Positions 6,197 through 62,453 of a stretch of DNA of 64,000 nucleotides are shown here, one piece after another. The notes below the pieces were generated by a model. The model had not been told where the DNA came from. It did no database searches and saw only the letters and a list, made by a program, of their open reading frames with translations. The stretch covers positions 1-64,000 of the forward strand of contig JAKEFB010000246.1 in assembly GCA_022616275.1 (NCBI GenBank), read 5' to 3'. Source of the DNA: Chloroflexota bacterium. Lineage in GTDB: Bacteria > Chloroflexota > Anaerolineae > Promineifilales > Promineifilaceae. Each line of letters begins with the position of its first letter. The stretch's first letter is position 1. The position numbers and the translations under genes were made by a program.

Positions 6197-6267
6197 AAGT
6201 GACAGTCACTTCTAAAAGTGGTTGAGCTTTGCCTTGCAAAGCCGGCCACTTTCAGTGACTGTCACTT
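6197..6267. repeat. Paired AAGTGACNGTCACTT dyads forming a nested hairpin
   Basis: Two copies of a 15-bp odd-centred perfect dyad (AAGTGAC-A-GTCACTT at 6197, a near copy at 6254) flank an inner inverted repeat (AGTGG...CTTTG CCTTG CAAAG...CCACT). The whole 70-bp block can fold as one long stem. A matching pair lies at 7684-7718, so the two blocks bracket the genes at 6285-7671. Confidence 0.75.
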
Positions 6268-7683: not shown

Positions 7684-7718
7684 AGGTGACAGTCACTTGA
7701 AAAAAGTGACTGTCACCT
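7684..7718. repeat. Paired AAGTGACNGTCACTT dyads (hairpin)
   Basis: AGGTGACAGTCACTT and AAGTGACTGTCACCT are perfect reverse complements separated by GAAAA. Each half is itself a 15-bp near-perfect dyad. This is the same motif pair as at 6197-6267, now 3' of the two-gene cassette. It could also end transcription, but no T-run follows. Confidence 0.8.
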
Positions 7719-13200: not shown

Positions 13201-13896
13201 GTGGATAAACCGGTTTTCTCATACAACGGCTTTCGTCTGACAGGCCAGCCTGTTGGCGGCCCGGCCGCCGGCCAGGATGAAGTTCTAAGTGAGTCGAGCG
13301 AGCTGGAAAGCCTCGACGAGCGGGCCTTGGTGGAGCAGGCCAGGCACAACCGCGAGGCCTTCGGCCGGCTGTATGAGCTGTACGTGGATAGGATATATAG
13401 TTATGTCTACTACCGGACAGGCAACCAGCGCGAGGCCGAGGATTTAACGGCGCGTGTTTTTATGCGGGCTATCCAGCACATCGGCCGTTACGAAGACCAG
13501 GGCGCGCCTTTTTCCGCCTGGCTGTACCGGATCGCCCGCAACCTGGTCGCCAACTGGTACCGTGACCAGAGCCGGCGGCAGATAATTTCTCTGGACCAGA
13601 TCAGCCATTGGCAGGTGGAGGATAACCCGGAGTTGGCCAGCGAGCTGGTGGAAAATCAGGAGGCGTTACTGGAAGCTATTCGCCGGTTGCCGTCTGAGCG
13701 GCAGGAGTTGTTGATTTTGAAGTACGTCGAGCGGCTATCGAACGTCGAGGTAGGCCAGATTATGGGTCGCAGCGAGGGGGCCATTAAGTCGCTGTACCAC
13801 CGGACGTTGCTCTCCTTACGAGACGAGCTGCTCCAACAGGAACACCAGAGAAAAGCCGGCCGGTGGGCCGCCTTTCGGGAGAGGCTACGCAAGTAA
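13201..13896 (+). CDS. ECF RNA polymerase sigma factor
   Basis: A 231-residue ECF sigma factor with a ~50-residue N-terminal extension. Region 2: FGRLYELYVDRIYSYVYYRTG and FSAWLYRIARNLVANWYRDQSRR. Region 4: LPSERQELLILKYVERLSNVEVGQIM with EGAIKSLYHRTLLSLRDEL as recognition helix. GTG start with AAGGAAG upstream. The gene is followed by a heptamer hairpin, degV and a small membrane protein that may be its regulator. Confidence 0.92.
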   Translation: MDKPVFSYNGFRLTGQPVGGPAAGQDEVLSESSELESLDERALVEQARHNREAFGRLYELYVDRIYSYVYYRTGNQREAEDLTARVFMRAIQHIGRYEDQGAPFSAWLYRIARNLVANWYRDQSRRQIISLDQISHWQVEDNPELASELVENQEALLEAIRRLPSERQELLILKYVERLSNVEVGQIMGRSEGAIKSLYHRTLLSLRDELLQQEHQRKAGRWAAFRERLRK

Positions 13897-13897
13897 T

Positions 13898-13945
13898 GAG
13901 TGATGAGTAATGAGTTAAAAGTCGCTTACTCATTACTCATCACTC
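13898..13945. repeat. Heptamer hairpin (ATTACTC/ATCACTC words)
   Basis: Arms GAGTGATGAGTAATGAGT (13898-13915) and ACTCATTACTCATCACTC (13928-13945) are perfect 18-bp reverse complements. The 7-bp words continue to about 13957 (GTTACTC ATCACTG). It begins 2 bp after the ECF sigma stop codon and may attenuate transcription into degV. Confidence 0.85.
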
Positions 13946-13976
13946 GTTACTCATCACTGTTTTAGGAGGGATAACT

Positions 13977-15415: not shown

Positions 15416-16489
15416 ATGAAGAGTAACCGGATCCACTTTGCGATTGTTGGCCTGTTGATTGGCCTTGTTTCGGTGGGCGTCTACTTCCTGCTGGTCGCCA
15501 TTTACCCGCTCCCCAGGGCGGCCAGCGCCGAGGCTGTGCCCATTGACCAGATGTTCACCGGCCACTTCATGTTGATCGCCTTTCTATTTTCGGTCATCGT
15601 CGTCTTCATGCTCTACAGCGTCATCGTGTTCCGCCGCCGGCCGGGCGACGACGAGGACGCCGTTCACTTCCACGGCCACACCGGGTTGGAGGTTGCCTGG
15701 ACCGTTATCCCCACCCTCATCGTCCTCGGTTTTGGTCTATGGGCCGCCGTTGTCCTGGAAGATATCACCAACCCTAATGACAATGAAATGGTCGTCCAGG
15801 TCACCGGCCAGCAGTGGTCCTGGAGTTTTGCTTATCCTGATCACCAAGAAGTGGGCGCCAGCGGTGAACTCGTCTTGCCGGTCAACCGGCCTGTTCGCCT
15901 TGAAATGCAATCGAGAGATGTGCTCCATTCTTTCTGGGTGCCAGAGTTCCGCGTCAAGCAAGATCTGGTCCCAGGCCAGACGACGATTCTGCGTATTACG
16001 CCGACTGTGATAAAGGAATACACAGTAAGCTGCGCCGAGATTTGTGGTACCAGACATGCTTTCATGCAGGCGGCCGTCCGCGTGGTGAGCCAGGCTGACT
16101 TTGAAGCCTGGCTGGCCGAGAGGGCGGCTGTCCCCCCTGTGGCCAGCCTGTCGCCTGAAGAACGGGGGCAAATGTGGTATACCGAGTTTGGTTGTTCCGG
16201 TTGCCATACCCTTGATGGTACTGGAACGACTGCGCCAAGTTGGTTGGGCCTCTTTGGCAGCGAGCGGACCTTTGAAGATGGCTCCACAGCGGTGGCCGAC
16301 GAAGCCTACATCCGCGAGTCCATTATCAATCCTGGCGTTCACATAGTGGACGGTTTCCCGCCGGGCGTCATGCCACCTGATTTTGAACGGCGTATCGAGG
16401 ATAGGGAAGCCCAAATCCAGTCTCGCGAGGGGATGGAGATAGATATTATTGCCGACATTATTGCCTTTATGATGACCTTAGAAGAGTAG
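15416..16489 (+). CDS. coxB: Cytochrome c oxidase subunit II fused to cytochrome c (caa3 type)
   Basis: A 357-residue CoxB. Two membrane helices (~6-30 and ~46-72) are followed by a linker and a cupredoxin domain (~100-215) with the CuA site CAEICGTRHAFM (Cys-x3-Cys-x3-His-x2-Met) and the aromatic patch QQWSWSFAYPD. The C-terminal ~90 residues are a class I cytochrome c: heme motif CSGCH and a likely axial Met in GVMPPDF. This fusion defines caa3 oxidases. Start at ATG 15416, because the upstream extension has no helix or RBS. First gene of the oxidase operon, 11 bp before coxA. Confidence 0.96.
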   Translation: MKSNRIHFAIVGLLIGLVSVGVYFLLVAIYPLPRAASAEAVPIDQMFTGHFMLIAFLFSVIVVFMLYSVIVFRRRPGDDEDAVHFHGHTGLEVAWTVIPTLIVLGFGLWAAVVLEDITNPNDNEMVVQVTGQQWSWSFAYPDHQEVGASGELVLPVNRPVRLEMQSRDVLHSFWVPEFRVKQDLVPGQTTILRITPTVIKEYTVSCAEICGTRHAFMQAAVRVVSQADFEAWLAERAAVPPVASLSPEERGQMWYTEFGCSGCHTLDGTGTTAPSWLGLFGSERTFEDGSTAVADEAYIRESIINPGVHIVDGFPPGVMPPDFERRIEDREAQIQSREGMEIDIIADIIAFMMTLEE

Positions 16490-16500
16490 GAAGGAGATAA

Positions 16501-18402
16501 ATGCTACTAAACATCCTGTCGCTCGGTGTAGTGCGCGGCCTGATTGGGCAGGCTATCGGCATGGCCGTGGGCTATCTATTGGTGACGCTTATCCGGCCGG
16601 CTCAGGGCCTGGGGCCGGCCGCGCCGGGTGGACCGCCCGCTCTTCCACCTCCTCACGGTCTGTCCTCCGAGCTGGCCTGGTTGGTGGCAGCCATCTTCGG
16701 CCTCATTGGCTTCCTGTTGGGCGCCGGTGTCTTCAATGACTGGATCAAATGGGCTTCCGGTAAAAAAACGCCGCTGCGCCACGGCCCGCCCGAACACCGC
16801 CCGGCCTGGACCCGCTATTTCAGCGTAGACTACAACCATAAGGTCATCGGCATCCAATACACCGTCACCGGCGTAATCGTCCTCCTCGTCGGCGGTATCC
16901 TGGCCATCATCTTCCGCCTGGAGCTGGTCTTCCCCGGCATGCAGTTTTTGACCGAGAACCAGTTCAACACCCTGTTTAGCGCCCACGGTATCATCATGAT
17001 TGCCAGCATCCTCCTGGGTGTGGGCGGCATGATCAACTACCTGGTGCCGCTGATGATTGGCGCTTCCGACATGGCCTTCCCCCGGCTTAACGCCTTTAGC
17101 TATTGGGTCGCCATCCCGGGCGCTGTGTTCATTCTCCTGGGCATCTTTCTCGGCGGCTGGGACACCGGCTGGGTCGCCTATCCGCCCTTGAGCGCCGTCA
17201 CCCCCCCGGTAGGCGTCCTGTTGTTCCTCTTTGGCTTCTACATCATCGGCTTTTCCTCCATTGCCGGGGCTATTAACGTATTGGTAACCGTGGCCACCAT
17301 GCGCGCCCCGGGAATGGGCCTCTTTCGCATGCCCATTTTCGTCTGGGCGGCCGTAGCTACCTCCATCATCCAGGTCACAGCCACCCAGACCGTCGCCGTC
17401 GCCCTGCTCATGGTCATCACCCAGCGTGTCCTGGGTATGGGCTTCTTTGACCCGGCCGGCGGCGGCGACCCCATCCTCTACCAGCACCTCTTCTGGTTCT
17501 ACTCCCATCCCGCCGTCTACATCTTTGTCCTCCCCGGCCTGGGGGTCATCAGCGAATTGCTGCCCGTCTTCTCCCGCAAGCCGCTCTTTGGCTACCGCTG
17601 GATCGCCCTCTCCAGCCTGGCCATTGCCCTCATCGGCTTCCTGGTCTGGGCCCACCACATGTTTGTCTCCGGCATGGACGACGCGCTCCGCGTGCCCTTC
17701 ATGTTCTCCACCATGTTTGTGGCTATCCCGACCGGGGTCAAGTTCTTTAGCTGGGTAGGCACGATGTGGCAGGGTAAGCTATCCTTTCCCACGCCGATGC
17801 TCTTTGTCCTGGGGGCCATTTCTGTCTTCCTCATTGGCGGCCTCAGCGGCCCCATCCTGGGCACCATTCCTACCGATATGCCCCTGCACGACACCTACTG
17901 GGTGGTCGGCCATTTCCACGCCACCATGTTCGGCGGCTTCGTCTTCCCCTTCTTTGCCGCCATGTACTATTGGTTCCCCAAGGTCACCGGCCGGATGTAC
18001 AACGAAGCCCTGGGCAAGCTCCACTTCTGGCTGATGACGCCCGGCTTCTGGCTGATGAGCCTGGGCCAGATGCGGGCCGGCCTGCTGGGTATGCGCCGGC
18101 GTGTCATTGATTACGATCCGGCCCTGGGCATTGACTTTACTCACTTCCTCATCACCCTATCGGCCTTCATCATCGGCTGGTCGGTGCTCATCATGGTCTA
18201 CAACCTGGTCAGCAGCGCTCGCTCGGCCGAGCTGGCCGAAGCCAACCCCTGGCGCTCCCGCTCGCCGGAATGGCAGGTGGCGTCGCCCATGCCGGAAATG
18301 AACTACGACCGGCCCCTTGTCGTCGTCGGCAGCCCCTACGACTACGGCCTGCCTGGTTCGACCTACGTCGTCAGTATGTACCCGGCCGGAGCCGGCGACT
18401 AA
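16501..18402 (+). CDS. coxA: Cytochrome c oxidase subunit I (A2-type heme-copper oxidase)
   Basis: A 633-residue CoxA that reduces O2 to water and pumps protons. Heme a ligands: His162 (SAHGIIM) and His473. Heme a3: His471 (VVGHFHAT). CuB: His336, His385 and His386 (VWAHHMFVSGMD). Cross-linked Tyr340. The motif YSHPAVY lacks the Glu of GHPEVY and carries Tyr-Ser instead, the mark of A2-type enzymes such as Thermus caa3. An N-terminal extension of ~105 residues adds two predicted helices (~10-30, ~58-80) joined by a Pro-rich loop before the canonical first helix. RBS AAGGAG before ATG. Confidence 0.97.
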   Translation: MLLNILSLGVVRGLIGQAIGMAVGYLLVTLIRPAQGLGPAAPGGPPALPPPHGLSSELAWLVAAIFGLIGFLLGAGVFNDWIKWASGKKTPLRHGPPEHRPAWTRYFSVDYNHKVIGIQYTVTGVIVLLVGGILAIIFRLELVFPGMQFLTENQFNTLFSAHGIIMIASILLGVGGMINYLVPLMIGASDMAFPRLNAFSYWVAIPGAVFILLGIFLGGWDTGWVAYPPLSAVTPPVGVLLFLFGFYIIGFSSIAGAINVLVTVATMRAPGMGLFRMPIFVWAAVATSIIQVTATQTVAVALLMVITQRVLGMGFFDPAGGGDPILYQHLFWFYSHPAVYIFVLPGLGVISELLPVFSRKPLFGYRWIALSSLAIALIGFLVWAHHMFVSGMDDALRVPFMFSTMFVAIPTGVKFFSWVGTMWQGKLSFPTPMLFVLGAISVFLIGGLSGPILGTIPTDMPLHDTYWVVGHFHATMFGGFVFPFFAAMYYWFPKVTGRMYNEALGKLHFWLMTPGFWLMSLGQMRAGLLGMRRRVIDYDPALGIDFTHFLITLSAFIIGWSVLIMVYNLVSSARSAELAEANPWRSRSPEWQVASPMPEMNYDRPLVVVGSPYDYGLPGSTYVVSMYPAGAGD

Positions 18403-18432
18403 CGGGTTGTAGCGCAGACTGTCACTCTGCCA

Positions 18433-18453
18433 GCGCAGGCTATTAGCCTGCGC
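18433..18453. repeat. GCGCAGGCTATTAGCCTGCGC palindrome
   Basis: A palindrome in the 80-bp gap between coxA and the subunit IV gene, preceded by AGCGCAGACTGTCACTCTGC. No T-run, so it is more likely an RNA-processing or dispersed repeat element than a terminator. Confidence 0.55.
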
Positions 18454-18482
18454 CACGAATCTTAAGCGATTGCATTTGCTAA

Positions 18483-18701
18483 ATGGAGAGGAAGATCGTG
18501 GAAGAAAGAAAAGCAGCCGTCTACCGCCAGGGAATCGTCGTCGCCGTAGTCCTGGCCATTCTCACCGGCTTCGAGTTCTGGGTTAGCATCGTGACCGGTG
18601 GCTCGGCCGTCTTGTTGTTCCTCATTGCCCTGGCCAAATCGGGGCTGATTGTCCAATACTTCATGCACATTTATCGCCTGTGGCGGCCGGAGAGTCACTG
18701 A
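18483..18701 (+). CDS. Cytochrome c oxidase subunit IV-like small membrane protein
   Basis: A 72-residue protein with two membrane helices (~16-33 and ~38-60). The second has the pattern ALAKSGLIVQYFMHIYRL, close to the KxxxIxxYFMHL motif of bacterial CoxD/COX4_pro subunits. The ATG at 18483 is followed by MERKIVEER. Its stop codon overlaps the coxC start (TGATG), so the two are translationally coupled. Likely a structural subunit of the oxidase. Confidence 0.88.
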   Translation: MERKIVEERKAAVYRQGIVVAVVLAILTGFEFWVSIVTGGSAVLLFLIALAKSGLIVQYFMHIYRLWRPESH

Positions 18702-19297
18702 TGAGCGCCGTCGTTAAAGACCTGCCCGCCCACCACGGGCACGAACCATCTTATGAACTCCAGTTGCGAAACAACCGCCTGGCTTTGTGGTTGTTCTGCT
18801 TTTCGGAGATTTTCCTCTTTGGCGCCCTGTTAAGCTCTCGCTTTTACCTGTGGGGCAACACCCGGCCGGACCTGGACCAGACGTTAGGTCTGATTACCAC
18901 CAGCGTCCTGCTATTGAGTAGTTTCTTTATGGCCCGCGCCGAGACGGCCATTGGCCACGACGACCGGCCGGTCTTTATGCGCAGCCTGCTATTAACGGCC
19001 GGGCTGGGCATCCTCTTCCTGGTTGGCGTCGTCGGCCTGGAGTGGGGCGGTCACCTGCGGCCGGACGATGGCGTCTATGGCGCTATCTTTTTTGGCATGA
19101 CCGGCGTCCACGCCCTGCACGTGTTGAGCGGGGTGATCTTGATCCTCATCGCCTGGAACAATGGCCGGCGAGGCCATTATTCGGCCGGGCGCCATTGGGG
19201 TGTGGAAGCCTGCGCCATCTACTGGCACTACGTAGATGTAGTTTGGGTCTTCTTTTACCCGGCGCTTTACCTGATCGGTACGGTCGCGGACATCTAA
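18701..19297 (+). CDS. coxC: Cytochrome c oxidase subunit III
   Basis: A 198-residue CoxC with five predicted helices. Typical motifs: LALWLFCFSEIFLFGAL, FFGMTGVHALHVLSGVILI and VEACAIYWHYVDVVWVFFYPALYL. It binds lipid and stabilises proton uptake in subunit I. Start at ATG 18701 overlapping the subunit IV stop. Length matches the short five-helix class of CoxC. Confidence 0.95.
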   Translation: MSAVVKDLPAHHGHEPSYELQLRNNRLALWLFCFSEIFLFGALLSSRFYLWGNTRPDLDQTLGLITTSVLLLSSFFMARAETAIGHDDRPVFMRSLLLTAGLGILFLVGVVGLEWGGHLRPDDGVYGAIFFGMTGVHALHVLSGVILILIAWNNGRRGHYSAGRHWGVEACAIYWHYVDVVWVFFYPALYLIGTVADI

Positions 19298-19327
19298 CGG
19301 TTTGTCGAGCAATACACCCTTTGCTCG

Positions 19328-19376
19328 GGCCGGTCTCCTGACCGTGCCCGTTGGTGGCGCGGTCAGGAGACCGGCC
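19328..19376. repeat. GGCCGGTCTCCTGACCG hairpin
   Basis: A perfect 17-bp inverted repeat (arms 19328-19344 and 19360-19376) around a 15-nt loop, in the gap between coxC and ctaG. It is the longest member of the family also seen at 643, 9492 and 59391. Confidence 0.8.
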
Positions 19377-19391
19377 ACAGCCTAATTTAAC

Positions 19392-20336
19392 ATGGACCCG
19401 GTTTTACGCGCCTTCCTGGCCTCCTGGGACTGGCGCATAGATGTTATCCTCGTTCTGGTTACGGCCGGGACACTTTACCTGACCGGCTGGCTGCGGCTAC
19501 GCCGGCGGGCGGCCGGTAAAGAACGCCACAGCCAATGGCAAATGGCCGCCGGCTGGCGGCCGGTTGCTTATCTGGGCGGGCTGACCTTGTTGGCTCTGGC
19601 CCTGATGTCGCCTCTGGACGTGCTGGGCAGCCAGCTCTTCTTTTTGCACATGATCCAGCATCTGGTCATGATCATGCTGGTCCCGCCCCTCCTGCTCCTG
19701 GCCAATCCCCTGCCGTTCTTTCTGTGGGGGTTGCCTGCCTCGCTGCGGCCCAAAGTTGGTGGTCCGCTGTTTGGCCGGGCGTCGCCTTTTCGTTATGGAC
19801 TACGCCAGTTTACCGGCCCGGCGCTGGTCTGGTTTCTGTTCGTCGCCTGTCTATGGGGCTGGCACGAGCCGATGGCCTACAACGCCGCCCAGGACGATGG
19901 CCTGGTCCACGACCTGGAGCACATCACTTTTTTCGGCACGTCGTTATTATTCTGGTGGCATGTGGTTGGGGCTGGCCCGCGCGTCCACCGGCCGTTCTCC
20001 GCTATCGGCCGGATCATTTACCTGGCTTCGGCCATCCCCCCCAGCATGGTCGCCGGCGTAGTTATTGCCTTTGCCCGGACGCCTATTTACAGCCATTACG
20101 AAGCCATGCCCCGCCTGTGGGGTATTTCAGTGTTGAGCGACCAGCAACTGGCCGGCATTATGATGTGGGTTCCCGGCGGCCTGATCTACATCGTCGCTAT
20201 CCTCATTCTGGCCGGCCGCTGGCTGCAGCGCGAACAGGAAAAACCGGCGCTCCCGGAGTCGGCCTGGGCCACAGACGAAGCCCTGATAGCCCCAGGAATA
20301 AACTTTGACGCCAAGGCGCAAAGACACAAAGGATAA
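19392..20336 (+). CDS. ctaG: Cytochrome c oxidase assembly protein CtaG (caa3 type)
   Basis: A 314-residue membrane protein with about seven helices of the caa3_CtaG family, needed for assembly of active caa3 oxidase, probably at the copper step. Characteristic stretches: LMSPLDVLGSQLFFLHMIQHLVMIMLVPPLLLLANPL with paired His, LWGWHEPMAYNAAQDDGLVHDLEHITFF, and DQQLAGIMMWVPGGLIY. The last ~10 residues (FDAKAQRHKG) are encoded by a TTTGACGCxAAGGCGC repeat and probably represent repeat invasion of the 3' end. Confidence 0.92.
   Translation: MDPVLRAFLASWDWRIDVILVLVTAGTLYLTGWLRLRRRAAGKERHSQWQMAAGWRPVAYLGGLTLLALALMSPLDVLGSQLFFLHMIQHLVMIMLVPPLLLLANPLPFFLWGLPASLRPKVGGPLFGRASPFRYGLRQFTGPALVWFLFVACLWGWHEPMAYNAAQDDGLVHDLEHITFFGTSLLFWWHVVGAGPRVHRPFSAIGRIIYLASAIPPSMVAGVVIAFARTPIYSHYEAMPRLWGISVLSDQQLAGIMMWVPGGLIYIVAILILAGRWLQREQEKPALPESAWATDEALIAPGINFDAKAQRHKG
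20306..20335. repeat. GACGCCAAGGCGCAAAGAC repeat
   Basis: The same words as at 11881 and 28594 in the opposite orientation. It overlaps the 3' end of ctaG and supplies its final codons and stop. Confidence 0.6.
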
Positions 20337-21845: not shown

Positions 21846-21912
21846 AGATTCTGGATTTTGGATTGGGCCGGTGAAGCTAAAATCGAAAACCTGAAATCCA
21901 AAATCCCAATGA
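21846..21912. repeat. AAATCCA/TGGATTT word repeat
   Basis: CAGATTCTGGATTTTGGATT on one side and CTAAAATCG...GAAATCCAAAATCCC on the other form an inverted arrangement of heptamer words in the gap before the transglutaminase-like gene. Confidence 0.55.
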
Positions 21913-24294: not shown

Positions 24295-24305
24295 GCCACG
24301 CCAAA

Positions 24306-24336
24306 CCCCGCAGGTTTCAAAAACCTGCGGGGTTTT
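24306..24336 (+). terminator. Rho-independent terminator
   Basis: Perfect 12-bp stem CCCCGCAGGTTT/AAACCTGCGGGG with loop CAA, followed by TTTT, 11 bp after the transglutaminase-like gene. Confidence 0.85.
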
Positions 24337-26181: not shown

Positions 26182-28701
26182 CTATTCGGTGACCACGACA
26201 CTGCCCAGTATATAGCGGTCGCCGGCCAGATTGCCGGCCGCGTCGGAGATGTGCAATCGCCGGCCGCTCGTCATTTCGTACAGCCCGACCTCGATGAAGT
26301 ACGTTCCAGGAGGGAGATCGGCCGGAATGGGCAGCCGGTAAGGGTCTAACATCCGTTGGCCCGGCAGCCACTTGGGTATCCACAGGTGCGTGGGGGTCGA
26401 GCCGCCTAGAGGGGTGTAGTCCAGAGCCACCAGCGGCCGGTTAGCCGCGTCAATGAGGTGAACGAAAACAGTATAGCTTTGCTCGGCCGGAGCCAGGCTT
26501 TGCCATTCCAGCGTCAGGTGAATGACGTCGCCCGGTTCGGCCGCCAGGGGACTGTCCCAGGGGGCGGCGCGGCGGCTGGCCAGGCCGTTGCTGGCCGTGG
26601 CCCTCACCAAACCTACGCGCTGGCGGAAGTTAGCCAATACGTGGTCCGTGCCAATAGGAAATTGCTGGGCGTTGACGGCCAGTTGCCCTAACGCCAGCGC
26701 CGGCCCACTGTTCTGGTTGGCGCTCAGGTTGCGCAGTTGCAACGTCACCGGGTAGTCGCCGGCCGGCAAATCATGAGGCAAAGCAAAATCGAAACGCTCA
26801 ATAATAACCTCGCCCGGTTGCCACTGGGGCGTGATCAGGTGGCTATCGGTGGTGAAGGCAAAGATCAGCTCGCCCACGTGCAGCACCGGGGCGTAATAGT
26901 CGGCCGTGACGGCCGGCGCGCCCATGGCCAGCGTCAGGGGCACAAAGTCGCCGGCCGTCACCTGGCGCTGCGGCAGCAAATAACCGACCACTTCCAGCGT
27001 TCCGGCCGGCGCCTCGACGCGCGTCAATTCAGGCGGAATGGTAGCTTCGCCCTGCTCGACCACCTGGTAAAAAGGGCCGCGCGGCCGCAGACGAAAGCCG
27101 GCATCTACGACCTCCCGCCGGTAGCCGCTGAGGTAAACCGGGTCGCCGGATAGAAAATCAAAGACGCTTTCCACCCAGGGGCGGGCGGTAGAAACCAGGC
27201 GCGGCTGCACATCGGCCGGGTTGGGCCAGCGCTCCTCGACAAACTGGCTGTACCACAGCGGCGTCATGTGCTCCCAGTCATTCAGCAGCACCGCCCCTTC
27301 GTTTTTACCCTCGAACCAGTCGAAAACGGCCGCCACGTAGGCCGATCCCTCATCGTACTCGCGCAGCGAGACGCGCGGGAGGTTGCGCACGATTTGCAGC
27401 ACTGGCCCTAGTAAGAAGAGCGGAATGAGCAGCCCGGCCAGAATAGCCCGCTCCGGCCGCAACCGCCGCGCCACCAGTTCCAGCAGCCCCGCCAGCCCCA
27501 CCCCCGCCAGCAGCCCGACGATCAGAAAGGGACCAAGCAGGTACGCCATAATATCCTGTTGGCGCAGACTAATGACAAAAGCGTAGTTGCCCAAAAAAGC
27601 CAGACCGTATAATAAGAGAAGGGGAGAGGGGGAGAGGAGCCCCCCTCTCCTTGTCTCCTTGTCTCCTTGTCTCCCCCTCTCCATCTTTCGTAAAAGCCAA
27701 AACAGACCTAGAACAGACAGGAAGAGGGTCGGCAGCGAGTATTGCAGGCGGAGCAGAGTCCAGAAGACCAACGCCCGGCCGGGTTGGTCGGCCAGGCTAA
27801 AGAAGGGCAGGCTCTCCGTCAGCCCCCGGGCCAGGACGTGGTTGAGGAAGCCGGCCAGAGTATCCATGTCGTGGGGGCCAAAGGCCGGTTCCATGTGGCT
27901 GCGGATGGGAAAGTAGAGCCACAGGCTGAGACCCAACAGGGCCAAGGCAATCATCTTCAACAGCGTCCGCCCCTCGCGCCAGATGCCCGGCCGGACCCAC
28001 AGAATAAAGAGGACATAGGCCGGAAAAGTAAAAACCGTCAGCGGATGGTGCGTCACCCCCAGCCCGGCCGAGAAGCAGAAAAGGTAAAGCCAGGGAGCAG
28101 GGGAGCTAAGGAGCAGGGGAGAATTGCCCCTTTGCCCCCTTGCTTCCCTGCCCCCCTGCTCACAAGCCCACCACTTGGTTAACAGGAACAGGTTGGCCGC
28201 CAGAAAGGCCGCGGTGATAATGTGCGGGTTGGTGTGGATGGCGTGTTGCCAGAAGTTCACCGCCGTAGCTACGGTCAGGGCGGCGAAGAGAGCGGCGATT
28301 TTACTGTAAAACGAATTTCCAATTCGTTCGACAACGCCGTAAACAAAAAAAGCTGCCCCCGTGCCGGCCGCGGCCGACAGCAGGTGCATCCGCCAGGGCA
28401 CGTCGCCAAAAGGGTTGAGGCTTTGAAAGAGCTTGCCCACCACTGTGATAAAAGCGTACCCTGGTGGGTGGGCAATACCTAGCATGTAGGCGACGAAAGT
28501 GTACTCCGTCGGATCGCCCAGAACCAGGCCGCGAGCCAGGGTCAGCAGATACAGCGCCGGAATAACCAACAAAACGGCCGGACCGAGAAAAATTTGACGC
28601 AAAGGCGCAAAGACGCGAAGAGATAATAATAAATTCTTTGCGTGAACTTTGGCAGGCCAAAGTCTGCGTCTTTGCGTCTTATTTTTGAATAAGCTGGTCA
28701 T
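26182..28701 (-). CDS. DUF2723 (TMEM260-like) GT-C membrane glycosyltransferase
   Basis: A large membrane protein (~839 residues) with ~11 helices and a C-terminal beta-rich external region (~500-839). The DUF2723 signature GDPTEYTFVAYMLGIAHPPGYAFITVVGKLF is near the N-terminus; the acidic residue early in this motif is the expected GT-C catalytic position. The eukaryotic relative TMEM260 is an O-mannosyltransferase, so protein or lipid glycosylation is likely. Start uncertain: ATG 28701 lies inside the upstream glycosyltransferase gene and the first ~32 residues are read from a TTTGCGTC repeat. Two further G-rich repeats seem inserted in frame in hydrophilic loops (27616-27684, 28091-28161). 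Confidence 0.85.
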   Translation of the reverse strand: MTSLFKNKTQRRRLWPAKVHAKNLLLSLRVFAPLRQIFLGPAVLLVIPALYLLTLARGLVLGDPTEYTFVAYMLGIAHPPGYAFITVVGKLFQSLNPFGDVPWRMHLLSAAAGTGAAFFVYGVVERIGNSFYSKIAALFAALTVATAVNFWQHAIHTNPHIITAAFLAANLFLLTKWWACEQGGREARGQRGNSPLLLSSPAPWLYLFCFSAGLGVTHHPLTVFTFPAYVLFILWVRPGIWREGRTLLKMIALALLGLSLWLYFPIRSHMEPAFGPHDMDTLAGFLNHVLARGLTESLPFFSLADQPGRALVFWTLLRLQYSLPTLFLSVLGLFWLLRKMERGRQGDKETRRGGLLSPSPLLLLYGLAFLGNYAFVISLRQQDIMAYLLGPFLIVGLLAGVGLAGLLELVARRLRPERAILAGLLIPLFLLGPVLQIVRNLPRVSLREYDEGSAYVAAVFDWFEGKNEGAVLLNDWEHMTPLWYSQFVEERWPNPADVQPRLVSTARPWVESVFDFLSGDPVYLSGYRREVVDAGFRLRPRGPFYQVVEQGEATIPPELTRVEAPAGTLEVVGYLLPQRQVTAGDFVPLTLAMGAPAVTADYYAPVLHVGELIFAFTTDSHLITPQWQPGEVIIERFDFALPHDLPAGDYPVTLQLRNLSANQNSGPALALGQLAVNAQQFPIGTDHVLANFRQRVGLVRATASNGLASRRAAPWDSPLAAEPGDVIHLTLEWQSLAPAEQSYTVFVHLIDAANRPLVALDYTPLGGSTPTHLWIPKWLPGQRMLDPYRLPIPADLPPGTYFIEVGLYEMTSGRRLHISDAAGNLAGDRYILGSVVVTE
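27616..27684. repeat. In-frame G-rich/TCTCCTTG repeat inside the DUF2723 gene
   Basis: GGGGAGAGGGGGAGAGG faces TCTCCTTG TCTCCTTG TCTCC and CCCCCTCTCC. On the coding strand it gives a hydrophilic Arg/Gly/Lys/Glu-rich stretch (MERGRQGDKETRRGG) followed by LLSPSP between membrane helices. Composition is unlike the surrounding gene. Confidence 0.6.
28091..28161. repeat. In-frame GGAGCAGGGG hairpin inside the DUF2723 gene
   Basis: CAGGGAGCAGGGGAGCTAAG...GAGCAGGGG pairs with CCCCTTTGCCCCCTTGC...CCCCCCTGCTC. It translates to EQGGREARGQRGNSPLLLSS in a loop of the membrane protein. The words match the intergenic element at 15257-15313. Confidence 0.6.
28594..28682. repeat. TTTGCGTC double repeat
   Basis: TTGACGCAAAGGCGCAAAGACGCG at one end and TTTGCGTGAACTTTGG...GTCTGCGTCTTTGCGTC at the other, with CTTTGGcaggCCAAAG inside. 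The GCGTGAACTTTGG...CCAAAGTCTGCGTC part recurs at 52637. It forms the junction between the glycosyltransferase stop and the DUF2723 gene. Confidence 0.7.
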
Positions 28702-30905: not shown

Positions 30906-30964
30906 AGAGATTGGAGATTGGCAACCACAGGTTGCCAATCTCCAATCTCTAATCTCTAATCTCC
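30906..30964. repeat. Heptamer hairpin (AATCTCC/AATCTCT words)
   Basis: Arms at 30906-30926 and 30930-30950 are perfect 21-bp reverse complements with a 3-nt loop, continued by two more 7-bp words (AATCTCT AATCTCC). The array overlaps the 3' end of the WecG/TagA gene and encodes its last residues (EIRD) and stop. Confidence 0.9.
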
Positions 30965-33661: not shown

Positions 33662-33731
33662 CTCCCAATTGAGAGAGATTAGAGATTGACAACCAGGGTT
33701 GCTCGCAATCTCCAATCTCTAATCTCCACCC
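33662..33731. repeat. Heptamer array (AATCTCC/AATCTCT words)
   Basis: GAGAGATTAGAGATTG on the left faces CAATCTCCAATCTCTAATCT on the right around GGGTTGCTCG. Same word set as at 30906 and 54613. Lies between the GT4 gene and the SH3 gene. Confidence 0.8.
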
Positions 33732-54612: not shown

Positions 54613-54671
54613 TATAAGAGATTAGAGATTGGAGATTAGAGAGTAGCCAATCTCCAATCTCCAATCTCCAT
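54613..54671. repeat. Heptamer array (AATCTCC words)
   Basis: AAGAGATTAGAGATTGGAGA on the left and GCCAATCTCC AATCTCC AATCTCC on the right form an inverted arrangement with ~15-bp pairing. It occupies the divergent intergenic region before the N6-methyltransferase gene. Confidence 0.8.
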
Positions 54672-60080: not shown

Positions 60081-60124
60081 GGTTATTGGTGATTGGTTAT
60101 GTCAATAACCAATCACCAATAACC
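60081..60124. repeat. Heptamer hairpin (ATAACCA/ATCACCA words)
   Basis: Arms GGTTATTGGTGATTGGTTAT (60081-60100) and ATAACCAATCACCAATAACC (60105-60124) are perfect 20-bp reverse complements with loop GTCA. It starts 2 bp after the stop of the membrane protein gene and ends 13 bp before rarA. Confidence 0.92.
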
Positions 60125-60137
60125 AATTTGCCAGTTC

Positions 60138-62453
60138 ATGGACCTCTTCGCCCAGGGCCGCCAGGCCCAGATTGAGAAGGAATCGCCCCTGGCCAACCGG
60201 ATGCGGCCGCGCACCCTGGAGGAATTTGCCGGCCAGGAACACATTGTCGGCCCCGGCCGGCTGCTGCGGCGGGCCATCCAGGCCGACCAGCTTTCATCCC
60301 TCATCTTCTACGGCCCACCGGGTACAGGCAAGACGACCCTGGCCCGGGTCATCGCCAACAGCACCCGCAGCCACTTCATCACCATCAACGCCGTCCTGGC
60401 CGGCGTGGCCCAGATCCGCGAGGCCATTGCCGAGGCCCAGGAACGGCGCAACCTCTACGGCCAGCGAACGACGCTGTTCGTGGATGAGGTCCATCGCTGG
60501 AACAAGGCTCAACAGGACGCCCTCCTGCCCCACGTGGAAAACGGGACGATCATTCTCATTGGGGCCACCACCGAAAACCCCTACTTCGAGGTCAATAAAG
60601 CCCTGGTCAGCCGCAGCCGCATTTTCCAGTTAAAGCCGCTGACCTCCGACGACTTGCGCCGGATTGCCCTCCAGGCGCTCCACGACGCCGAACGGGGTTA
60701 CGGCCGGTTGCCAATAGACCTGCACCCCGATGCCCTCGACCACCTCGTGGACGTGGCCAACGGCGACGCCCGCGGCGTCTTGAACGCCCTGGAGCTGGCC
60801 GCGGAGACGACGCCGCCTAACGAGGATGGGGTCGTCGTCATAGACCTGGCCGTGGCCGAGGAATCCATCCAGCGCCGGGCCGTCCTCTACGACAAAGAGG
60901 GTGATGTCCACTACGACACCATCTCCGCCTTTATCAAGAGCCTGCGTGGCTCCGATCCCGACGCCGCCCTGTATTGGTTGGCCAAGATGATTTACGCCGG
61001 CGAGGACCCGCGCTTTATTTTCCGGCGCATGGCCATCCTGGCCGGGGAAGACGTGGGCCTGGCCGACCCCAACGCGGCCGTCGTCGTGGCCAGTTGTTGG
61101 GAGCTGTTCGAGCGCATTGGCCTGCCCGAGGGGCAATTTCCCCTGGCCCAGGCCGCTCTTTACCTGGCTACCTGCCCCAAGTCCAACTCGGCCCTGGCCT
61201 TTTTTGACGCTCTGGGCGCTGTCGAGCAGGAACAGGAGTCAGAAGTCCCCAACCACCTGAAAGATGCCAACCGGGACAAGGAAGGCTTTGGCCACGGCCA
61301 GGGCTACCTCTACCCCCACGCCTACCGCGAACATTGGGTCGCCCAGCAATACTTGCCCGACGCCTTGCAAGGCAAAGTCTTTTACCAGCCCGGCGACCAG
61401 GGCTACGAGCGTCAGATTCGCGAGCAGGTCGCCCGCCGCCGTGAGGAACAACTGGCGGCCATGCTGGAAAGCCGTGAATGGCGCGCCGGTAGCGGCGAGG
61501 TCTTGACCACCGGCCCGGTGGACAAAGCCCGTGACGCCTGGCTGCAGCGGACGATTTCCCAGGCCGGCCGCAACCTGGGCCACCTGCGCGACCGGTTGTT
61601 TGCCCTGGCCCTGGTCCAGCGTCACCACCTTGTCCTGGACCTGAATGCCGGCAGCGGGCTGCTCACCTGGGAGGCAGTGCGCCGTGCCCCGGAGGGCGGG
61701 GTCTGGGCCATCACCGCCGACCCCCAGGCCGGCGAGGCGTTGCGCCAGCAGGCCGCCCGGCTGCCGGAGCTGGAACGGCCGGTGATTTTAATCGGCGAGT
61801 TGGCCGAGCTGGAATACCTGCTCTCCCTCCGCGGCGAAGCCGATCTCCGCTTTGACCGCATCCTCGGCCGCAACGTCTTGACGGCCAATGGAAACCGCAC
61901 TGCCGGCCTGGCCCAACTGGCGCCCCGGCTGCTGCCGGCCGGCCGGCTCTGCCTGGCCCAGGTCATCCCCCGCCACAACCAGCGCCTTTACGAGTTGGTA
62001 GATTGGTCCACTGTTTCCACCCGGCTGGCGGCCAAAGTCAAAGCGGCCGAGGAGGAGATTTACCGCGACCCGGCCGACCCACTGGTGAACTGGGACGAAG
62101 CCAACCTGGCCGCCGAAGTGGCTGCCGCCGGCTTCAGCAACGTGCAGCTTCAGGTGGAAAAGCAGGTGGAGCAACGCCGCATCACCGCCGCCCACCTGGA
62201 GCGCTGGTTTGGCTTGGCTGAGGGACAGGAGAGAGGGAGTCATGACCAGGTAGCCAAAAATCCAAAATCCAAAATCCAAAATCTAAAATTGGAGGGTGAA
62301 CGATTAAACTACGTGGAGCGGTTACAGGCTGCCGGGCTGCGACCCAAAGAGCTGGAACAGGTGGCGGCGCTGTACCGCCGCCAGCTCCACGATCAGGTCG
62401 TTGGCTGGCCCACAACAGTCGCCTTCCTCATCGCCGGCCCTCCAGCCCTCTAG
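60138..62453 (+). CDS. rarA: Replication-associated recombination protein A fused to a methyltransferase-like domain
   Basis: A 771-residue protein; ordinary RarA/MgsA is ~430-450. Residues ~1-430 are RarA: NRMRPRTLEEFAGQEHIVGPGRLLRRAI, Walker A FYGPPGTGKTTLARVIA, Walker B TLFVDEVHRWNKAQQDALLPHVENGTI, sensor GATTENPYFEVNKALVSR, and the MgsA_C region ending near YLPDALQGKVFYQP. Residues ~450-690 add a Rossmann/methyltransferase-like domain (VLDLNAGSGLLTWEAVRRAPEG, RILGRNVLTANGNRTAGLAQLAPRLLPAGRLCL). A TCCAAAA heptamer run lies in frame near residue ~710. RarA acts at stalled replication forks. Confidence 0.93.
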   Translation: MDLFAQGRQAQIEKESPLANRMRPRTLEEFAGQEHIVGPGRLLRRAIQADQLSSLIFYGPPGTGKTTLARVIANSTRSHFITINAVLAGVAQIREAIAEAQERRNLYGQRTTLFVDEVHRWNKAQQDALLPHVENGTIILIGATTENPYFEVNKALVSRSRIFQLKPLTSDDLRRIALQALHDAERGYGRLPIDLHPDALDHLVDVANGDARGVLNALELAAETTPPNEDGVVVIDLAVAEESIQRRAVLYDKEGDVHYDTISAFIKSLRGSDPDAALYWLAKMIYAGEDPRFIFRRMAILAGEDVGLADPNAAVVVASCWELFERIGLPEGQFPLAQAALYLATCPKSNSALAFFDALGAVEQEQESEVPNHLKDANRDKEGFGHGQGYLYPHAYREHWVAQQYLPDALQGKVFYQPGDQGYERQIREQVARRREEQLAAMLESREWRAGSGEVLTTGPVDKARDAWLQRTISQAGRNLGHLRDRLFALALVQRHHLVLDLNAGSGLLTWEAVRRAPEGGVWAITADPQAGEALRQQAARLPELERPVILIGELAELEYLLSLRGEADLRFDRILGRNVLTANGNRTAGLAQLAPRLLPAGRLCLAQVIPRHNQRLYELVDWSTVSTRLAAKVKAAEEEIYRDPADPLVNWDEANLAAEVAAAGFSNVQLQVEKQVEQRRITAAHLERWFGLAEGQERGSHDQVAKNPKSKIQNLKLEGERLNYVERLQAAGLRPKELEQVAALYRRQLHDQVVGWPTTVAFLIAGPPAL
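62254..62291. repeat. TCCAAAA heptamer run inside rarA
   Basis: Four to five tandem heptamers (CCAAAAA TCCAAAA TCCAAAA TCCAAAA TCTAAAA) within the reading frame of the RarA fusion, giving KNPKSKIQNLK in the product. The AT-rich words stand out against the GC-rich gene and match those at 2911 and 21846. Confidence 0.75.

Follow-up and report, generated by a model that had tools for sequence, protein, structure and literature searches.

Mirrored arrays of 7- to 9-nt words form G-first hairpins near gene ends with a patchy distribution in Chloroflexota

We found that the intergenic DNA of a Chloroflexota genome carries short hairpins in which tandem copies of a 7- to 9-nt word are followed by a loop and inverted copies of the same word, that the G-rich arm comes first for nearly all words, and that related species have different words, other hairpins or nothing at the same gene boundary. 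Our preferred reading, to which we assign a probability of about 0.43, is that these are dispersing hairpins which occupy the gene-end position and would act there as RNA hairpins.

Results

Word hairpins in the window and in its genome

The window analysed is a stretch of 64,000 nucleotides (contig C165 in our set) from a genome of 8.53 Mb in 309 contigs with a contamination value of 5.5; most of the compared genomes are draft assemblies. A first-pass annotation had described inverted heptamer repeats at five loci of the window, and these were confirmed, including the perfect stems of 18, 21 and 20 bp at 13898, 30906 and 60081 (Table 1). Its statement that each locus uses a different word was wrong: the loci at 30906, 33662 and 54613 all use GAGATT[A/G]. 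Another word hairpin, at 21853, was absent from its list. In the 30906 hairpin the innermost 7 bp of the stem (GGCAACC/GGTTGCC) are not copies of the word. According to the list of open reading frames, a stop codon is overlapped or lies at most 5 bp away at four of the five loci, the exception being 54613.

Table 1. Word hairpins of the window, with their stems and neighbouring genes
Position	Word	Stem	Neighbourhood and remarks
13892..13958	GAGT[A/G]AT / ATTACTC	perfect stem 13898-13945, 18 bp, loop 12	sigma-70-type factor ORF ending 13896; DegV-family gene starting 13977
21853..21906	GGATTTT	12-bp stem, loop 30	
28606..28676	CGCAAAGA (period 8)	11-bp stem	single C-first case in the own-genome sample (by G-C count)
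30906..30964	GAGATT[A/G]	perfect stem 30906-30950, 21 bp, loop 3	C arm extends to 30964, overlapping the end (30949) of a minus-strand WecG/TagA-type glycosyltransferase ORF; epimerase-type ORF, minus strand, starting 30827
33662..33731	GAGATT[A/G], imperfect	longest perfect stem 33675-33726, 14 bp	minus-strand ORF end (33736), 4 bp away
54613..54671	GAGATT[A/G]	perfect stem 54625-54661, 13 bp	between divergent genes (script gene calls)
60081..60127	GGT[T/G]ATT	perfect stem 60081-60124, 20 bp, loop 4	ORF ending 60078, 2 bp before; next ORF, with AAA and MgsA_C domains, starting 60138

The hairpins of the window are real and not a product of chance. With loops of at most 60 allowed, 18 perfect stems of 12 bp or longer were found (two loci being counted twice), whereas 20 dinucleotide shuffles gave 0.35 on average; for stems of 14 bp or longer the numbers were 9 and 0. 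From this genome 822,567 bp were sampled, the window included, and yielded 206 hairpins (stem of 11 bp or more, loop of at most 50). Of these, 42 are word hairpins, 36 having period 7 and 6 having period 8; this density leans upward because the stretches were chosen on contigs with matches to a polarity-neutral pattern, and the counts also miss real cases, since the word filter is so strict that only 13898 and 54625 of the five window loci pass it. When this sample was dinucleotide-shuffled once in 500-bp blocks, 14 hairpins arose, none with a 7- or 8-nt period; similar hairpin counts in a shuffled control, which the first-pass annotation had named as a refutation, were thus not obtained. Exact tandem runs in 463 kb peak at period 7 (25, the next value being 5), and the C-strand word pair CCAATCTCNAATCTC occurs 377 times in the genome, as compared with 3 occurrences of its reversed control. 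Periods 6 and 10 are nearly absent among the word hairpins of nine Chloroflexota samples.

The window contains further repeats. Non-periodic palindromes at 6197-6267, 7684-7718 and 24303-24335 (AGGTGACAGTCACTT, AAACCCCGCAGGTTT) look REP-like, and the own-genome sample contains close variants of them at other places. A repeat finder reported period-7 AAAATCC arrays at 62257-62289 and 2914-2934.

Polarity of the arms

The hairpins have a near-fixed polarity, with the 5' arm G-rich, that is common to nearly all words. When 53 genomes of the family were scanned for GAGATT hairpins, the G-first pattern gave 1828 matches in 22 of them (a sum of per-genome counts in which overlapping matches of one hairpin are counted several times), as compared with 2 matches of the C-first order, in 2 of the 53 genomes. 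This blind scan found no C-first match in genome G067, whose sampled stretches were themselves chosen on contigs with G-first matches, so that the GAGATT polarity within that sample is not blind. Across word hairpins of periods 7 to 9 in the nine Chloroflexota samples, polarity assigned by G-C count was G-first in 128, C-first in 5 and equal in 5. The bias is present between divergent genes (11:1, with 1 equal) and inside called genes (10:1) as well.

An RNA rule by which all gene-end hairpins are G-first was considered as the full cause of this polarity and rejected. Non-word hairpins at gene ends were G-first by 108:50, a ratio that fell to 78:48 once cryptic repeats were removed, and this does not differ from the 32:30 measured for non-word hairpins in other places (P = 0.21).

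Position relative to genes

The position of the hairpins was evaluated with gene calls from our own hexamer script, which is non-standard and for the named (database-titled) loci was trained on mixed species. On these calls, 28 of the 42 word hairpins in the own-genome sample lie between tandem genes, 7 between convergent and 4 between divergent genes, 2 inside genes and 1 at an edge. Between tandem genes, the median distance is 5 nt from the stop codon to the stem and 23 nt from the stem to the next start. The 183 GAGATT hairpins pooled from the own genome, G067 and the named loci are divided similarly into 108 tandem, 20 convergent, 13 divergent, 31 inside genes and 11 at edges, and 81 of the 108 tandem ones start within 20 nt of the upstream stop codon. 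The G067 sample holds 50 word hairpins in tandem gaps for 339 called genes, in stretches partly chosen for hits. In genome G024 the tandem cases are few (7), with a median of 24 nt from the stop codon, further than elsewhere.

Short tandem gaps are occupied more often than long ones. With the hairpin itself subtracted, tandem gaps under 20 nt carry a hairpin in 19 of 136 cases, those of 20-59 nt in 4 of 77 and those of 60 nt or more in 6 of 247 (P = 3.5e-5 for the shortest against the longest class); convergent gaps are occupied in 7 of 84 and divergent gaps in 4 of 83 cases. A TTTT run within 12 nt after the stem was found in 2 of 29 hairpins, and the terminator role proposed by the first-pass annotation is therefore not supported in its classical, U-tract form.

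Word arrays were also seen within coding-like sequence. In G024 (L198, about 15960-16540), arrays of GCAGGGGA words, including one hairpin, align with open, coding-like sequence of congeners, as if the arrays were additions to a protein gene.

Turnover of words at orthologous boundaries

Relatives have other sequences at the same boundaries, and not one conserved terminator sequence. For the 30906 boundary, where the orthologous gap was cut from 3 of 19 loci, G008 has a mirrored array of a different, 8-bp word, and G021 and G011 have other sequence. In genus g4 the same boundaries are either short and empty or filled with GAATTAG, TAGGGGC, CAGTGGT, GCAGGGGA or 9-mer hairpins. Two boundaries of genus g23 show the same turnover. 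At the first, the word is GGAGATTA in G067, ATGTGTC in G068 and GGTAATTG in both G069 and G035, while G022 has another palindrome and G066 no word hairpin. At the second, GAGATTA is common to G067 and G068, an 8-mer hairpin is present in G022 and G035, and the gap of G069 measures 8 bp. Elsewhere a word hairpin of G067 stands opposite a different hairpin common to three congeners, and at yet another boundary a terminator-like stem with TTTTT in G067 corresponds to CGTGATG word hairpins in G035 and G068. The finding of different words at the same boundary in related species suggests that these are exchangeable, spreading hairpins and not fixed signals.

We also asked how often orthologous gaps hold any hairpin, scoring 22 gaps of two stretches with a threshold that 0 of 105 shuffled gaps reached. 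A hairpin was present in 26 of 38 orthologous gaps where G067 has one and in 8 of 34 where it does not (P = 1.7e-4). This result leans on the close relative G068, with which hairpins are often shared by descent, and on gaps that could not accommodate one; without G068 and gaps under 20 nt the counts become 15 of 27 and 5 of 16 (P = 0.21). The counts thus argue weakly that the gene-end position requires a hairpin.

Distribution and dispersal

The hairpin class occurs in many Chloroflexota but is patchy. Within one genus the number of GAGATT pattern matches ranges from 0 to 442. The density of word hairpins is 167 per Mb in the G067 sample, a value that leans upward through the choice of stretches, against 0 in 154 kb of its congener G066; none were found in G007 (80 kb) or G049 (40 kb), and 21 kb of G008 contain 4. 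A scan of named sequences returned at least 112 stretches, and among the matches listed most were titled Chloroflexi, Chloroflexota, Anaerolineae or relatives, with single stretches from Moorena, Mucilaginibacter and Prevotellaceae, each of these three having one match per genome.

Dispersal within the genome is indicated by a loop, GGCAACCA..GGTTGCTCAC, that is common to six own-sample loci outside the window whose arms differ, two of the six having the same mutant word GAGGTT in the G arm. Related loops are present in the window hairpins at 30906 and 33662. This loop-sharing subfamily shows copying of the hairpins as units and, together with the presence/absence pattern and the word turnover at orthologous boundaries, backs the dispersal implied by the earlier suggestion of a mobile or self-copying element.

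Hallmarks of known mobile elements were searched for in 51 GAGATT hairpins. The two 10-nt flanks shared a 4-mer in 6 hairpins as compared with 5.8 after shuffling, a 5-mer in 3 (1.2 shuffled) and a 6-mer in 1 (0.2 shuffled), which is not the target site duplication of a MITE. Their 102 outer feet contain no fixed tetranucleotide, the commonest 4-mer being GATC (9 feet). At high identity, no pure heptamer hairpin gave a clean filled/empty pair. RVT_1 reverse transcriptase and Y1 transposase were tried as marker genes in 13 genomes, 8 of them sampled for hairpins, and no relation to word hairpins was seen: Y1 transposase (PF01797) had matches in all 13, whether or not word hairpins occurred in the samples, and RVT_1 had none in G067 and G024, which both have word hairpins. 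RVT_1 is thus not needed for the movement.

Other dispersed elements were noticed on locus L237 of G067. A MITE-like insertion of about 157 bp (18814-18971) has inverted ends CGCATATTC...GAATATGCG and a flanking duplication of about 16 bp, is missing from the 97-98% identical DNA of G068 and has dozens of related matches in congeners. The elements at 17685-17808 and 16158-16253 have a common part (CACCAC.ATAAATGAAAA) followed by 9-nt words of the ATCTGCGTA type; they are matched elsewhere in G068, and the copy at 17685 corresponds to about 112 bp absent at that G068 site. The stretch 16254-20000 is 97-98% identical to G068, as compared with about 81-92% in the rest of the 20 kb, which suggests a recent exchange.

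Independence of the two arms

GAGATT hairpins have one variable base per word, mostly A or G, and the agreement of this base between the arms was at the level of chance: 61 of 113 innermost pairs matched (62.4 expected), as did 65 outermost pairs (60.5 expected), and chance level was also seen when any register was allowed (P = 0.54, 38 hairpins). Nor were arms more complementary to their partners than to strangers, the scores being 16.39 within and 17.07 between hairpins in the own genome (18 hairpins) and 18.48 and 19.12 in G067 (23 hairpins). In a mixed set of 124 hairpins the within-hairpin score was higher (18.58 against 17.51, a value reached by no shuffle), which we tentatively ascribe to word differences between genomes. 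There was no covariation and no preference for G-U pairs, A-C mismatches (20 and 22) being as common as G-U (13 and 21) in gene sense, and the C arm was not the longer one in gene sense (37 hairpins longer 5', 36 longer 3', 35 equal). Adjacent words within one arm differ somewhat more often than expected. Thus, in the two genomes examined, the own genome and G067, the arms are neither fold-back copies of each other nor held by exact pairing; they vary independently, and what is mirrored is the words and not the exact sequence. We consider this an unusual case, in which mirrored arms have a common word and yet are not copies of each other.

An origin of GAGATT hairpins by fold-back copying or template switching is not supported, as the variable bases do not match and partners match no better than strangers. 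In the 8-mer pair of G022 and G035 the arms appear to have changed together, and arm independence may not hold for every word. Between close congeners with 92% identity, a common hairpin differs by 42 bp, or six words, in one arm.

Discussion

The interpretation given by the first-pass annotation is partly supported. According to the reading we prefer, the unit would be a short, dispersed, non-coding element in which a G-rich array of words of 7-9 nt and the inverted, C-rich array enclose a loop. Such units would spread within the genome with loop and arms together, as found for one loop subfamily, and the arms would grow or shrink and swap words at a quicker pace than that of loop change, which is suggested by their independence and by the length difference of six words between close species. 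The units would come to rest at gene 3' ends, mostly right at the stop codon within a short tandem gap; in congeners this place may be taken by a different hairpin or a terminator-like stem. Their proposed role there would be that of RNA hairpins, defining the mRNA 3' end, causing partial termination or separating neighbouring genes, and one hairpin may be able to replace another. If this is right, a sizeable share of the gene ends of these uncultured bacteria is rewritten by short words on the time scale of species. Against this reading stand the pooled hairpins inside genes (31 of 183) and between divergent genes, the boundaries that are empty in a congener, and the lack of covariation, of a G-U preference and of a U tract. 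The weakening of the conserved-position count to P = 0.21 led us to grade this reading lower and to raise the following one.

The hairpins could instead be purely selfish or neutral dispersed repeats with no function at gene ends, their position at stop codons reflecting the removal of insertions elsewhere. We regard this as doubtful, although much is consistent with it: the patchiness and turnover of words, arms that pairing does not hold together, a boundary empty in a congener, arrays in a coding region and hairpins called inside genes, in addition to the conserved-position support that is weak without G068 and the tiny gaps. Long tandem gaps, which are expected to collect neutral insertions, are nevertheless rarely used, and at several boundaries other kinds of hairpin replace the word hairpins, neither of which fits neutral repeats.

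We also propose, as a conjecture that is unlikely but worth stating, a dispersal based on words. What is inherited and spread would be the 7-9 nt word and the mirrored G-first layout and not a fixed sequence; the arms would be written or recopied independently from the words current in the genome, perhaps by copying other arrays where a hairpin has broken at its centre. Words would thereby switch within a genus while the position after stop codons stays in use.

Another alternative is that the arrays are protein binding sites, the word being read with one degenerate position and the pairing being incidental. The single variable position of the GAGATT word, its independence between the arms and the equal arm lengths in gene sense are consistent with that, but the number of unrelated words found in a genome and at a boundary would call for many proteins, and the polarity is common to nearly all words, which makes the idea improbable. 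It is more improbable still that the arrays were written at break ends, both 3' ends of a double-strand break acquiring G-rich words, either from a template or by copying of other arrays, before they are joined like telomere-telomere fusions. This would explain the polarity of all words, the independent and unequal arms, the variable loops and the lack of target duplication; however, it predicts neither loop-sharing copies nor a preference for stop codons, and with no RVT_1 match in G067 and G024 that reverse transcriptase family would not be the writer. Finally, ordinary intrinsic terminators that are repetitive by accident would fit the location after stop codons and the terminator-like stem at one orthologous boundary, but with the scarcity of T runs after the stem, the same word recurring genome-wide and hairpins also in divergent gaps and genes, we consider this explanation very improbable.

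Comparison with known repeat systems

REP and BIME palindromes are hairpins of high copy number with a gene-end and intra-operon position, and REP sequences associated with RAYT have a conserved GTAG or CGTC foot. The word hairpins differ in having no fixed foot tetranucleotide and no stem sequence common to different words.

STRR is the name of the short tandem heptamer repeats of cyanobacteria. The hairpins described here resemble them in their tandem heptamer units and mostly intergenic location; they are not direct arrays. Of the period-7 array clusters, 31 of 96 were mirrored in the own genome and 31 of 62 in G067, in stretches partly chosen for hits, as compared with 2 of 137 in a 400-kb Moorena sample. 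This supports the first-pass view of a distinct element class as far as the cyanobacterial repeats are concerned; mirrored heptamers as such have a precedent in Xanthomonas, described in the text retrieved from Rehm et al. (2015; PMC4692102).

In a literature search that mostly covered titles and the openings of abstracts, no report of mirrored heptamers in Chloroflexota was found. The TAACTGA repeats of Beggiatoaceae are, in the retrieved text of MacGregor (2015; PMC4679880), likewise heptamer arrays that are mostly intergenic and patchy across phyla, with 169 direct sets and 1 inverted set in a Maribeggiatoa genome. According to the retrieved sections of Rehm et al. (2015), convergent inverted pairs of GGGAATC arrays, with one array on each strand, number 70 and 75 in two xanthomonads; the GGGAATC / GGGGA(C/T)T heptamers of Xanthomonas and Nostoc have degenerate positions, are mostly intergenic and close after stop codons, with 7-8% between divergent genes, and their prominent lengths vary by species. 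The hairpins studied here share with them the convergent heptamer array pairs near stop codons, if "convergent" is taken to mean G-rich first. They differ from the words in those sections, which contain tracts of G3 or longer and form G4, in that most words lack such tracts: the commonest ones (GAGATT[A/G], GGTTATT, ATGCGTG, AATCGGT) have none, and some, e.g., GCAGGGGA, do. They differ further in the many 7-, 8- and 9-nt words per genome and in the different words found at one boundary.

Within the retrieved portions of this literature we did not find a description of many words per genome, of 8- and 9-nt versions, of a polarity independent of the word, of independent arms, or of boundaries at which words and kinds of hairpin are exchanged. 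As judged from the same portions, the layout and the place of the hairpins are not new, being known from Xanthomonas since 2015, and the hairpins reported here are a multi-word variant. If our preferred reading is right, the scattered reports of heptamers from Xanthomonas, Nostoc and Beggiatoaceae would be united under one testable rule, the G-first polarity.
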